Shown one piece after another: positions 7,889-13,781 of a stretch of DNA of 64,000 bases. The stretch's first letter is position 1. Each line of letters begins with the position of its first letter. The notes under the pieces are model-generated. The model worked only from the letters and a program-made list of their open reading frames with translations. It was not told the origin of the DNA and made no database searches. Source of the stretch: Sulfodiicoccus acidiphilus (GTDB lineage Archaea > Thermoproteota > Thermoprotei_A > Sulfolobales > Sulfolobaceae); the NCBI RefSeq assembly GCF_003967175.1, contig NZ_AP018553.1, forward strand, positions 1-64,000. The letters are read 5' to 3'. A program made the position numbers and the translations under genes.

Positions 7889-9514
7889 ATGAACTACCCT
7901 CTCATGAACGTCAATAGAGCTCTAGGGCCTGCTGTATTAGTTATCTTCGCTATTGCCCTACTCCTAAGCAGGGGTAGGTATTTAGATATATTTTTTACTT
8001 CACATACGATTTTATTAGTAATACCCAGTGGATTAGGATTAATCATATTTATATTAATAAAAAATAGAATTAAGAAGAAAATTGATCTCCTAAAAATACA
8101 GAACGATGTAGTGGTAATAAAAAACGGAGAGAAGTTGATTGCCTCCGTGCCGTATAAGCTTTCCATAAGGGAGAGGGGGTCACAATCGAGAATCGATTAC
8201 GCGAACGAGATAGAAGCACTAGGAAGGGTTCTAAGTAGGGCTTTCCCTGATCTGCTTTTAACGATCGTGACCCAGCTTGAAAACCGGCCAAATACTCTAT
8301 TAATAGCGAGCTGTGAGGGGAAATCAGAAGAACAATTAAGGAGGAGATTAAAGGAGTTCGGAGAGTTCCTGATTACAGTCAAAGACTCCATAGCCCCAGA
8401 TATAGAAATGAACTCGATGCGCAGTAGTAGAGCTCTCGTAGTTCCGTTGGGAGATGGAGGAGACGCGGTATTTCTAAAAGTGTACGGCTCTGTGCCGGCC
8501 TTGCCAAATTCTCGTGGGTACTCAATTGGCTTCGACATCGAGTTAGGTAAAGCCAACGACGGCTACGACACGCCAGTGGGATTGAGAAAAGAGGAGTTAC
8601 TCAGACATGTTGCGATATTTGGAACTACGGGTAGTGGGAAAACCAACACGGCGGGACTGATTGCAGCGGGCGCTGCTAAGCTCGGATTCAGGACTGTAAT
8701 AGTAGACTGGCACGGAGAATATTCCGCTTTGCTGAAAGATGCAGAAAAATGGGACGTTAAAAGGCCCCTCAAATTGAAGCTATTCCAAGAGGACGATGAT
8801 TTGGAAGAAGTAGTACAAGTACTAGGGGAGGCCTTAGACCTCACTGAGCCTCAGCGGTTTCTACTTCTCACAATTCTAAATTTGGTCCGCAAAAAAAGTA
8901 GGGAAAGGGTCTTTGACGCCGTTGTACGAGCAGAGGAGAACTCGTACTGGATAAGAGATGTAAAATATGCATTGGCTCGAAAACTTTACACTATTTCTAC
9001 CCCCAAGGCAGACATACTTTTCAGCGACGGCGAAGGTGTGGAGTGGAGGGATATATTGAAGTGTTTGAAAGGAATCAACGTAATAGACCTCTCTCTGGTC
9101 AACAACTTGATTCTAAGGAAGGTTTACGTTCTCTTCCTGCTAAGATTCTTGACCGAGGCTCACTTGAGAAATTGGGACGGTAAGACTACAATTGTAGTAC
9201 TCGAGGAAGCTCATAACTACCTCAAGGAAGACAACCCGTTTATAGAAAGGATGATGTCAGAAATGAGGAAGTTCAACTTAGGGATCTGTGTAGTCTCACA
9301 GTCGCCCTCCACTATAGCTCCTTGCGTAATTAAAAACACCAACACGAAACTTGTTCACGCCTTAAAATCAAACGTCGACAAGTCGGTAGTGAGGGATTCC
9401 ATGGCATTGGACGAAAAATTCACTTCCGCTTTAGATAAGCTCAGAGTGGGAGAGGCGTTGTTAAGTAGCCCCACCCTTCCATATCCTGTAAGTCTGAGAG
9501 TAAAAAAGGGTTAG
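7889..9514 (+). CDS. Membrane-anchored HerA-like (DUF87) ATPase
   Basis: 541 aa. Two N-terminal membrane helices (about residues 12-28 and 36-56) are followed by a soluble region, then a HerA/FtsK-class ATPase domain with Walker A GTTGSGKT (near residue 245), VIVDWHGEY just after it, Walker B VVLEEAHN (near residue 435), and the sensor stretch VVSQSPSTIAP. HerA-family hexamers translocate or process DNA; the standard archaeal HerA is soluble and works with NurA, Mre11 and Rad50, none of which is here. A membrane anchor suggests a role in DNA movement or segregation at the membrane, or a VirB4-like secretion ATPase. It overlaps the convergent thermosome gene by four bases. Confidence 0.78.
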   Translation: MNYPLMNVNRALGPAVLVIFAIALLLSRGRYLDIFFTSHTILLVIPSGLGLIIFILIKNRIKKKIDLLKIQNDVVVIKNGEKLIASVPYKLSIRERGSQSRIDYANEIEALGRVLSRAFPDLLLTIVTQLENRPNTLLIASCEGKSEEQLRRRLKEFGEFLITVKDSIAPDIEMNSMRSSRALVVPLGDGGDAVFLKVYGSVPALPNSRGYSIGFDIELGKANDGYDTPVGLRKEELLRHVAIFGTTGSGKTNTAGLIAAGAAKLGFRTVIVDWHGEYSALLKDAEKWDVKRPLKLKLFQEDDDLEEVVQVLGEALDLTEPQRFLLLTILNLVRKKSRERVFDAVVRAEENSYWIRDVKYALARKLYTISTPKADILFSDGEGVEWRDILKCLKGINVIDLSLVNNLILRKVYVLFLLRFLTEAHLRNWDGKTTIVVLEEAHNYLKEDNPFIERMMSEMRKFNLGICVVSQSPSTIAPCVIKNTNTKLVHALKSNVDKSVVRDSMALDEKFTSALDKLRVGEALLSSPTLPYPVSLRVKKG

Positions 9515-11175
9515 TCCTCGTCTTTCTTTTCCTCTCCAGACTTCTTGCTTTCTCCTCCCTTTGGTTCGCTCTTCTTCCCAGCTGCTATGAGATCGTCGAT
9601 TCTGAGTATTAGCGTGGCCGCTTCCGTAGCTGCCTTTATGGAATTGGCCTTCACTACCGTTGGTTCGATTACCCCTAACTTCCACATATCGTCGGGCTGC
9701 CCTGTAAAGACATTAACTCCATACCACTTGTTCCCCTCCGTCTCATGCAGACTCCTGAGCTTCATCAGGAAATCTATCGGGTCCAGTCCAGAGTTCTCCA
9801 TCAGTGTCACAGGGAGTCCCTCTATGGCATTAGCGTAGGCCTCGATTGCCAACTGCTCCTTCCCGCCAACTTGAGGTGCCATCTTCCTCAGTCTCTTGGC
9901 AACCTCAATTTCCACCGCACCTCCCCCAGCAACGACGCGTCCATCTCTTATAACGTCGGCAGTAGTTCCTAGAGCGTCCTTTATGGCTCTCTCTGTCTCG
10001 TCCACAACCCTCTCTAGACCTCCTCTTATCAATATACTCACGGCCTTCGGATTCTTAGCTTGCTCTACAAAGACCATCTTATCCTCTCCTACTTTCCTTT
10101 CCTCCACTAATTTCGCGTAACCCAGATCCTGGGCCGTCAGCTCGTCGATATTGGAAACAACCCTTCCTCCGGTCGCTCTGGACAACTTCTCTAGGTCGCT
10201 CTGCTTCGCTCTTCTCACAGCTAAGATTCCATGCTTAGCCAAGAAGTGTTGTGCAACGTCATCTATTCCCTTCTGGCAGATGACAACATTAGCCCCGCTT
10301 GCAACGATCTTTTCGACCTTCTCCTTGAGGATGGACTCGTCCTCTTCGAGGAACCTTTTCATCTGTGTGGGATCGTTTATCCTTATCTCAGCATCTATCT
10401 CTGGTTTCTCAACCTCTAGTGGGGCGTTGAGAAGAGCGATCTTAGCGTCCTCTACTCTCTTGGGCATTCCTGGGTGGACTACTTCCTTGTCTACAACTAT
10501 TCCATAAACTAACTGGGTATCTCTTATGCTTCCACCATGCTTCTTCACTAACTGAACGTTATCTAAGTCTACGTAGAGTCTGTCACCTCTCTTCTCAGTA
10601 ACCTGAGTGACTGCCTTAACCACTATGTCGGCGATGTAATCTCTGGCTCCAGCCACAGCCTTGCTATTAAGGGAGGTATGGGCCACCTTCTTCAGAGTCT
10701 CCAAGTCGTCTACAGTAACTTTGGCGCTCAATTCATTGATCGCCTTTATGGCCTCCTCCTCAGCCTTCTTATATCCGCTTACAATAACTGTCGGGTGAAT
10801 ATCCTTGTAGAGCAAGTCCTCTGCCTTCTTCACTAGGTCTCCAGCTAATATTACCGCTGTCTTAGTGCCATCTGCAGTCTCTTCGTCCTGCCCCTTGGCT
10901 ATCTGAACTAACAGCTTGGCCGCTGGGTGCTGTAAATCCATTTTGTCTAATATAGTAGCACCATCGTTGGTAATCGTTATATCTCCTAAGCTGTCAACGA
11001 GCATCTTGTCCATACCTCGAGGTCCGTAAGTGGTCTTTAACATCTCCTGCACAATCTTAACGGCGGAGATGTTGACTCTGAGGGCTTCTTTCCCGTAGCT
11101 CCTACTCGATCCTTCCTTGAGGATTATCACGGGGATTCCTTCTGGAGTTTGCGCAACTGTTGCAGTTGAGGACAT
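9511..11175 (-). CDS. thsB: Thermosome (group II chaperonin) subunit, TF55 beta-like
   Basis: 554 aa. The N-terminus [20 protein letters not shown] and the block [20 protein letters not shown] are those of the TF55/CCT family; the ATP motif is [10 protein letters not shown] (about residues 96-105), and the Gly-rich stretch [16 protein letters not shown] follows near residue 410. The C-terminus ends in a Lys/Glu-rich tail. It matches, as far as I can recall, the beta (TF55) type of Sulfolobus, which forms nine-fold rings with alpha and gamma subunits. A TATA box (TATAAAAG at 11214-11221, read on the minus strand) and a GGTGATAG ribosome site precede the ATG. The subunit letter is less certain than the family. 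Confidence 0.95.
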
Positions 11176-11221: not shown

Positions 11222-11313
11222 ATTTTCTGACATTGCGTAGCATGGGCCTAGCTCGGTTCCACACAACTCATAGCATTAGGAAATGCATGTCGGTTTAATC
11301 CAATCAGTAAAGG

Positions 11314-11399
11314 AGCCGCCGACGGGACTTGAACCCGCGACCACCGGCTTTCCAGCCAGAGGCTACGAGGCCGGCGCTCTACCGCTGAGCTACGGCGGC
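11314..11399 (-). tRNA. tRNA-Thr(CGU) with a 14-nt intron
   Basis: The acceptor stem GCCGCCG/CGGCGGC closes, the discriminator is U as in archaeal tRNA-Thr, and the anticodon stem CCGGC/GCCGG is split by a short intron at about 11350-11363, just 3' of position 37. The mature loop is CUCGUAA with anticodon CGU (11365-11367). A TATA element (TATAAA on the minus strand, 11428-11433) lies about 30 bases upstream, inside purB. The 5' 21 bases of the tRNA also encode the last six residues and stop codon of purB. CCA is not encoded. Confidence 0.93.
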
Positions 11400-12743
11400 A
11401 AACTCTTCCCTAATTCCCTTGAAGTAGTTTATAGCCCTTTCTATCATTTCTCTGTACTGGCCTAGGTAAACCGAGGGATCTAATACCTTGTGAAGTTCTT
11501 CGTTGTTGAGGAGTGACTTTACTGTCTGATCTTCAATCGCTACTGATATCAATGGAAGTCCGAGATTACTACTTTTTCTACTTAGTTCTGATACTATGCT
11601 GTGGGCGACATGTCGTGGAATTCCTTTCCTTGTAAGGCTTAGCATGAGGCTCTCCGCCATTATATTCCCTTTACTCAATTCTAGGTTTTCCATCATTTTC
11701 TCCTTATTTACCTTCAAGGAGCTTAAGAGTTGAATAAAACTGTCCAACATCTCATCGATTATAAGCAGTGAGTGGGATAGAAGTATGCGTTCTGACGAAC
11801 TATTCGTCAGATCTCTCTCATGCCAAGTTGGAATATTCTCAAGCGCGGGAACTACAAAGCCCCTAAGCACCTTAGCCAAGCCACAGATCTTCTCAGAAAG
11901 AACTGGATTCTCCTTCTGAGGCATAGTGCTACTCCCAACCCTAGAAGGGACGGACTCAGCTAGCTCAGCAATCTCTGGTCTCATAAGTTCCCTCACTTCT
12001 AGGGCGAAACGATCTAGCTGGCTACCCAATATGGCTAAATCAGATATGAGTTCGGCATGTCCGTCTCGAGGGGCTATCTGTGTAGTGATCTCGTGAGGAG
12101 ATAAGCCCAGTCTCTTCGAGACCTCCAATTGGATCATGCCACCTTTCTCCCCCCAACCGGCGGCCGTTCCGACTGCACCCGCCATCTTCACTTTTAGCAG
12201 CCTCGACTCCACCTCCTTCAGACGCTCTAGCGATCTCGTCAATTCGTAAACGTAGTTTGCAAGCTTAAAACCGAAGGTTATTGGAAGGGCGTGTTGTCCG
12301 TGAGTTCTCCCCACCATTAACGTATCTGCATGTTCGATAGCCAACGCGGATAGCAAGTCGAGACTCTTAACTAGCTTTCTCTTAAGAATATCCAAGGCGT
12401 CCCTAAAGATCAGAGCATATGCGGTGTCCACTATGTCGTAGCTAGTGGCGCCAAAGTGCACCATCTTCCCGGCGTCTCCCGCTTTCTTGGCCAAAACAAC
12501 TGCCATTGCCATTACGTCGTGGCCTATCCTTCTCTCTTCCTCCTCAATTTCGGATGGGGTAATGGTCGAGGCGACGTCAAGAACAACCTTAATGCTCTCT
12601 GGATTTTCGATCCCAACCTCCGCCAGAGCTTGGAGGAGGACCACCTCTACACGGATCATTCTCCTTATTATTTCCTCTCTGGAGAAGAGTAGTCTCATCT
12701 CTCTGCTTCCATACCTCCAATCAAGTGCACAGATTGAAGACAC
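11379..12743 (-). CDS. purB: Adenylosuccinate lyase
   Basis: 454 aa from a GTG start. The fumarase/aspartase-superfamily signature [10 protein letters not shown] lies near residue 270 and the substrate loops [14 protein letters not shown] and [12 protein letters not shown] are intact. PurB cleaves SAICAR and adenylosuccinate, releasing fumarate, at two steps of purine synthesis; purP and purA follow on the opposite strand. The reading frame runs into the tRNA-Thr gene: the final residues AAVAQR and the TAG stop are read from the first 21 bases of the tRNA. The promoter region of 42 bases is shared with the divergent purP gene; CCTTATACGT on the minus strand (12763-12772) is a suitable TATA box. 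Confidence 0.95.
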
Positions 12744-12785: not shown

Positions 12786-13781
12786 GTGAGAGTAGCCACA
12801 CTAGGTAGTCATTCCTCTCTCCAAATCCTACATGGGGTCAAAGCTGAAGGTTTGGAGCCTATGCTGGTCGTTGAGAAGAAGAGACGGGACTTTTACTCTC
12901 GCTTCGACTTCATAGACTCCATCCTTACCTACGAGGATTTAGACAGCGCAGTGACACTACTTAACTCCTCCGACGTTATTGTTCCTCACGGGAGTTTAAT
13001 CGAGTACCTAGGAATTGAGAGGGCGTCTAAGTTAAAAAGTAAGAGCATCTTCGGAACTAGGAATCTTTTCAGTTGGGAGTCAGACCAAAAGAAGAAAATG
13101 AGTCTGTTAAAGATGGCAGGAGTGAAAATCCCAGAACAGTTCGAGGATCCAGAGGACGTGGACAGACGAGTAATTGTTAAACTTCCTGGAGCGAAGGGAG
13201 GCAAGGGCTACTTCGTAGCAGAAAGTAAGGGCAAGGTGAAAGAAGGGCTGGCAGAAGTAATGCGAAAAGGCCTGATAAAGGATCCTTCAGAGGCGTTAAT
13301 TCAAGAGTACGTGATAGGAGTTCCCATGTACTTCCAGTTTTTCAGAAGTGTAGTTAAAGACAGAATTGAAATAACTGGCATAGACGTGAGATACGAGACT
13401 AACGTCGACAGCCTCAGGAGGCTGGTAGACCCTAAAGGAGTGGAACCTTCGTTCGTGGTTGTGGGTAACATACCGCTTGTGGCTAGAGAAAGTCTGCTTC
13501 CCAACGCCTTCGCATACGCGGAGTCCTTCGTTAGGGTAGTAGACGACTTGGTGCGACCCAAGATGATTGGGCCTTTCTGTCTAGAAACCGTGGTAACCGA
13601 TGAGTTAGACATTGTAACGTTTGAGTTTTCGGGGAGAATAGTAGCTGGGACTAACCTATACATTGATGGAAGCCCATATAGTTGGCTATACTGGAGGGAG
13701 CCAATGAGTGTGGGTAGAAGAATTGCGAGGGAATTAAGAGAGGCGAAAGAAAAAGGGAAATTGGAGGAAGTTCTCACATGA
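12786..13781 (+). CDS. purP: PurP, FAICAR synthetase (first copy)
   Basis: 331 aa from a GTG start. Archaeal PurP is an ATP-grasp ligase that formylates AICAR with formate and ATP, in place of the folate-dependent PurH step. The N-terminus [19 protein letters not shown], the ATP-grasp strand [18 protein letters not shown] (near residue 130) and the C-terminal metal-site block [24 protein letters not shown] are family features. The next gene is a second PurP whose ATG overlaps the end of this one by four bases (ATGA). The last part of both genes is identical over 72 bases. It is divergent from purB. Confidence 0.92.
13685..13756 (+). repeat. 72-bp block identical in both purP genes, copy 1
   Basis: Starting at GCTATACTGGAGGGAGCCAA, 72 bases near the 3' end of the first purP are identical to 14728-14799 in the second, although the rest of the two proteins has diverged strongly. 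Confidence 0.95.

Follow-up and report, generated by a model that had tools for sequence, protein, structure and literature searches.

The 3' end of purB in Sulfodiicoccus acidiphilus overlaps the gene of tRNA-Thr(CGU) on the same strand by 21 nt, and the purB stop codon is taken from the tRNA. This overlap is confirmed as real in the window, i.e., the whole 64,000-nt stretch that was analysed. It is uncommon but mostly ordinary, and seems to be an accident, tolerated by the cell, of a gap that has shrunk, not a regulatory device. Loss of the spacer, a tRNA promoter inside purB, a harmless protein tail, and a tolerated competition between translation and RNase P together form an account that we regard as probable. 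The junction is most simply explained by a loss of spacer that the cell tolerates, the tRNA being transcribed from a promoter of its own. The features involved are as follows.

11379–12743, minus strand: purB, adenylosuccinate lyase, 454 aa, GTG start and TAG stop, from TIGR00928, Pfam Lyase_1 and ADSL_C, and the translation.
11314–11399, minus strand: tRNA-Thr(CGU) gene with an intron, from Rfam RF00005 (63 bits), ARAGORN, and the fold.
11379–11399, minus strand: the 21-nt overlap, in which the six final PurB codons (AAVAQR) and TAG coincide with the acceptor 5' strand, the D-stem 5' strand, and the D-loop of the tRNA.
11379–11381, minus strand: the purB stop TAG, which is bases 19–21 of the tRNA, from the sequence and the D-loop comparison.

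The minus strand from 11399 to 11379 reads GCC GCC GTA GCT CAG CGG TAG, corresponding to A-A-V-A-Q-R-stop. This TAG corresponds to U20-A21-G22 in the standard tRNA numbering. The 5' end of the tRNA was placed at 11399 by both Rfam (63 bits, 11399–11314) and ARAGORN (11399–11312). The first-pass annotation had claimed that the last six PurB residues and the stop lie inside the first 21 bases of the tRNA, and this is borne out by the translation, Rfam, and ARAGORN. The RF00005 score of 63 bits compares with a gathering score of 29, and the computed fold has the expected 7-bp acceptor stem and a T stem. PurB scores 425.7 bits against TIGR00928 (cut-off 326.2), which identifies it as an adenylosuccinate lyase at the equivalog level. 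Since this match runs in frame up to residue 436 of 454, purB is read into the tRNA in its correct frame.

PurB is present in all 31 genomes of the Sulfolobaceae sampled; loci were obtained for 30, and that of G004 was fetched separately. In 29 of the 31, a tRNA-Thr gene lies downstream of purB on the same strand. No tRNA-Thr was seen nearby after purB in G005 (L068) and G004 (L193). In 27 of the 29 linked genomes, the purB stop precedes the tRNA by 6–340 nt: the distance is 6 nt in two, 22–33 nt in 16, and 44–340 nt in nine. The remaining two, both in group g1, are at -21 nt. The overlap is thus found in the two g1 genomes only, 21 nt in each, and is known from two species, one of which is represented by an 87%-complete draft. 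In other words, comparison of the junction in related genomes, as proposed by the first-pass annotation, gave the same 21-nt overlap in the second g1 species and none in the 27 other linked genomes. The linked tRNA has the anticodon CGU in nearly all cases, ARAGORN giving TGT for G001. A few were misnamed Ser or left undecided by ARAGORN, which we think is due to the intron; the undecided isotype in S. acidiphilus is likewise explained by the intron.

To judge from the sequences compared, the adjacency of purB and tRNA-Thr is old within the family. It is not an order-wide trait: a tRNA-Thr within 1.2 kb of purB occurred in none of the 39 out-of-family genomes fetched from 54 with strong PurB matches. 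Other tRNAs (Ala, Leu) are near purB in two of these 39. The distant-relative loci L015–L048 were left out of the tRNA scan.

The distance from a conserved R-A-I motif of PurB to the tRNA is 39–42 nt in g1, as against 72–79 nt in g3 and in G011 of g6. By this comparison, the overlap is a derived state common to both g1 species, with about 30–40 nt of tail and spacer missing. The ancestor would have carried the Sulfolobaceae tandem of purB and tRNA-Thr(CGU), from which the genus Sulfodiicoccus would have shed about 30–40 nt at the junction. Loss of the old purB stop and the spacer would have led the frame into the tRNA in phase 1, to end at the D-loop TAG. The frame does enter the g1 tRNA in phase 1, and this phase is the same in both species despite a length difference of 3 nt. 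The g1 D-loop, AGCGGTA, has 7 nt in these two of the 29 linked tRNAs, whereas the other 27 have 8–10 nt. TAG therefore falls in frame at tRNA bases 19–21. With D-loops of 8–10 nt, a phase-1 frame would meet its stop at 22 in five genomes; in the others, the stop would lie at 37 or further on, or be missing from the first 108 nt. The 7-nt D-loop is also present in the g1 tRNA-Thr(UGU); the other tRNA-Thr genes examined, including UGU genes of other genera, have at least 8 nt.

The AAVAQR tail lies outside the Pfam ADSL_C domain (359–437). The C-terminus is FAAVAQR in both g1 genomes, whose PurB proteins are 69% identical. PurB tails vary both in length and in sequence across all the species compared, so AAVAQR stands in for an apparently unconstrained tail, and these six residues past the conserved domain are probably a harmless gain.

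The genes on both sides of the junction were also compared.

12786–13781, plus strand: divergent neighbour of purB with DUF1246 and DUF1297, adjacent to it at 29 of the 30 family loci.
9511–11175, minus strand: thermosome subunit (Cpn60_TCP1), downstream, so placed only in the two g1 loci among 30.

The former is of the PurP type; it is absent from beside purB in G005. Because the thermosome gene has this position only in g1, the g1 junction has a changed downstream neighbour. This suggests that the region around the tRNA was rearranged in Sulfodiicoccus.

The tRNA seems to be provided with a promoter inside the coding region.

11428–11433, minus strand: TATAAA, predicted TATA box of the tRNA in purB codons A-I-N; best motif window 11438–11429, AGGGCTATAA, held-out score 4.2.

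A TATA box had been proposed at this site within purB, and TATAAA is indeed there, at -34 to -29 from the tRNA. The motif was trained on 42 other tRNA upstream regions of S. acidiphilus, with the target held out; L101 (following another tRNA) and L123 (a 30-bit match) were dropped. Its consensus is AAAATTTTAA, starting mostly at -39 to -32. The purB-internal box scores 4.2 at -39, and 37 of the 42 other tRNAs score at least 4.2 (five are lower). This score is reached at 2.1% of 6672 coding positions and at 3.0% of 574 positions near ORF ends. The box is TATA/BRE-like, with a score at the low end and a position at the edge of the tRNA range. In the second g1 species, the predicted box scores only 2.3. 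At the 29 linked loci, the top-scoring box is within purB codons 11 times, across the stop nine times, and in the spacer nine times; several are weak (2.1–3.5). Since 20 of the 29 touch purB codons or the stop, an internal promoter is normal here and independent transcription of the tRNA is suggested; as far as motif predictions tell, the family as a rule seems to carry a promoter at the 3' end of purB. The tRNA-Thr(CGU) gene probably has its own promoter inside purB, and the earlier claim to this effect is supported, as a prediction, by the score of 4.2 against its frequency of 2.1% in coding positions. Transcription from the last purB codons would leave a short 5' leader for RNase P.

A transcript that contains the purB stop necessarily carries the 5' half of the tRNA. 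T-runs are favoured in archaeal termination. T-runs do not exceed 2 nt within the tRNA, or 4 nt within the 161 nt examined beyond it; the first 4-nt run is located 91 nt past the 88-nt tRNA stretch. This means that purB transcripts holding the stop probably hold the whole tRNA and would be substrates of RNase P. Genes for the archaeal RNase P RNA and for Pelota are present in the genome. The prediction that an RNase P cut would strip the purB stop is conditionally supported for any joint transcript, and the non-stop message, structurally sound as an idea, is a possible outcome. A ribosome at base 21 would unfold the acceptor and D arms, so that translation and RNase P cutting should exclude each other on each molecule. 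The overlap leaves a single RNA unable to act fully as message and tRNA together. Translation and RNase P would compete for the joint molecule, and the cell would tolerate this. When the purB end and the tRNA were folded together, an alternative pairing appeared (z -0.96), little above that of shuffled sequences.

It might instead be supposed that the overlap arose by pure chance and is without consequence, the purB mRNA being translated before processing and the tRNA being made from its own promoter, with no competition. We consider this rather unlikely. It draws on the stop-rich nature of tRNA sequences, by which many read-ins end fast: frames were closed within 30 nt of entering the tRNA in 61 of 132 tRNA-phase cases, compared with 20% after shuffling. 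Convergent genes likewise end within tRNAs, at 2 of 45 places in S. acidiphilus, 0 of 32 in G021, 0 of 34 in G009, 1 of 36 in G012, and 1 of 33 in G024. However, a joint transcript would still be a physical substrate of RNase P, and no terminator-like T-run separates the stop from the tRNA.

Same-strand ORFs of at least 100 aa entering a tRNA from its 5' side are found at 1 of 45 tRNA places in S. acidiphilus. The corresponding counts are 1 of 32 in G021 (the orthologue), 0 of 34 in G009, 0 of 36 in G012, and 0 of 33 in G024, where the scans took 30 loci each of 44–46 tRNA matches (30 of 39 in G021). Thus, the earlier remark that such an overlap is unusual holds for the genomes sampled. As the single case in S. 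acidiphilus, and one that recurs in the second g1 species, the overlap goes beyond chance. One further same-strand ORF, running into a "tRNA-Lys" in G024 (L308, G024:C1:2138206-2138757), was rejected: Rfam has no tRNA there, and the ARAGORN call was taken as false. The convergent genes (L115 and L093 here, L276 in G012, L289 in G024) stop in the antisense 3' part of the tRNA. They include an ABC permease and a DUF131 protein, and three of the four end in GGI or AGI.

A second alternative is a processing switch, in which the two genes are mostly co-transcribed, RNase P destroys the purB stop, and tRNA maturation limits PurB through a non-stop message rescued by Pelota/ABCE1. Only in g1 does the RNase P site precede the purB stop, T-runs within the tRNA do not exceed 2 nt, and the Pelota and RNase P RNA genes are at hand, all of which would suit such a switch. 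Nevertheless, it is improbable: the tRNA has a predicted promoter of its own, spacer loss already explains the arrangement, no sign of regulation was seen, and a second, near-identical tRNA-Thr(UGU) gene exists elsewhere. Quite improbable, too, is the elaborated form, in which each read-through transcript makes a one-way choice between being translated and being cut, the cut yielding tRNA-Thr plus a non-stop purB mRNA that Pelota clears, so that tRNA processing tunes the purine enzyme and the short D-loop is kept as a source of the stop. The first-pass annotation had held that purine synthesis is coupled to a tRNA. This was not upheld, the pair being adjacent without overlap in 27 genomes and 20 of the 29 boxes lying at the purB end or stop; nothing here supports control of purine synthesis by the tRNA.

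Alternatively, the junction tRNA might be dispensable, with its twin taking over. The tRNA-Thr(UGU) gene, at G000:C1:1069482-1069569 (L002), differs from the CGU gene at one of 88 bases, intron included, namely the first anticodon base. Dispensability is nonetheless very improbable, because the acceptor and T stems, anticodon, and intron of the CGU gene are intact in both species. An artefact of annotation or sequencing (a missed stop or a frameshift) is rejected as having next to no likelihood: nothing was found in its favour, the second species, with a PurB 69% identical, has the same overlap, frame, and tail, the PurB profile is complete in frame, and the genome is described as complete, from PacBio reads, in the available part of its report (PMC6647314).

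The intron of the junction tRNA was placed as follows.

11350–11363, minus strand: tRNA intron, 14 nt, after anticodon-loop position 37, by analogy with the ARAGORN model of the orthologue.

The anticodon CGT was read from the sequence, and ARAGORN gives the g1 orthologue as Thr(CGT) with a 13-nt intron. The tRNA-Thr introns differ between the two g1 species, yet the CGU and UGU genes of S. acidiphilus differ by one base, so gene conversion or a recent duplication likely made the latter two near-identical.

In vertebrate mitochondria, tRNA processing sets mRNA 3' ends, and incomplete stops are completed by poly(A), according to the part of PMC5015259 that was available. The present junction resembles this tRNA punctuation, as known here from sequence, in that a protein gene runs directly into a same-strand tRNA, with a 21-nt overlap. 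It differs in that its stop, a full TAG within the tRNA, needs no completion by poly(A) and would be removed by cleavage, and in that the tRNA likely has its own promoter. Short same-strand overlaps are ordinary in compact prokaryote genomes, where loss of a spacer allows a frame to continue into its neighbour until it meets the next stop that happens to occur there. The purB frame seems to have been extended in the same manner through spacer loss, but here the neighbour is a structured RNA, a tRNA whose maturation is at odds with the frame that enters it. The tandem in other Sulfolobaceae has an identical gene order and often a predicted tRNA box at the purB end, whereas its stop is 6–340 nt upstream of the tRNA and its D-loop has 8–10 nt. 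In the convergent genes ending in the tRNA T-arm (L093, L115, L276), the tRNA sequence likewise supplies the stop codon; unlike purB, they are antisense to the tRNA, and RNase P cleavage of the tRNA precursor spares their message.

The junction shows cleanly, in a natural setting, how codons and a structural RNA can occupy the same bases of one strand, and sister genera still display the non-overlapping ancestral arrangement. It would permit a direct test of competition between RNase P and the ribosome on one archaeal RNA. For annotation, caution is needed, as pipelines that trim genes at tRNA borders would delete the true purB stop. A literature search for archaeal same-strand overlaps of coding sequences and tRNAs, or for purB–tRNA linkage, did not find this case in the portions of the sources it covered.

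The S. acidiphilus genome has 2,353,189 bases, and 45 tRNAs are given for strain HS-1 in the available part of the genome report (PMC6647314). A CopG-like (RHH_1) frame at L008:3226-3582 crosses the whole tRNA-Thr(UGU) gene in antisense, which adds about 30 residues of tRNA-antisense peptide. A probably spurious plus-strand ORF of 60 aa at 11283–11465 of the window is likewise a translation of the tRNA in antisense (PPTGLEPATTGFPARG...).
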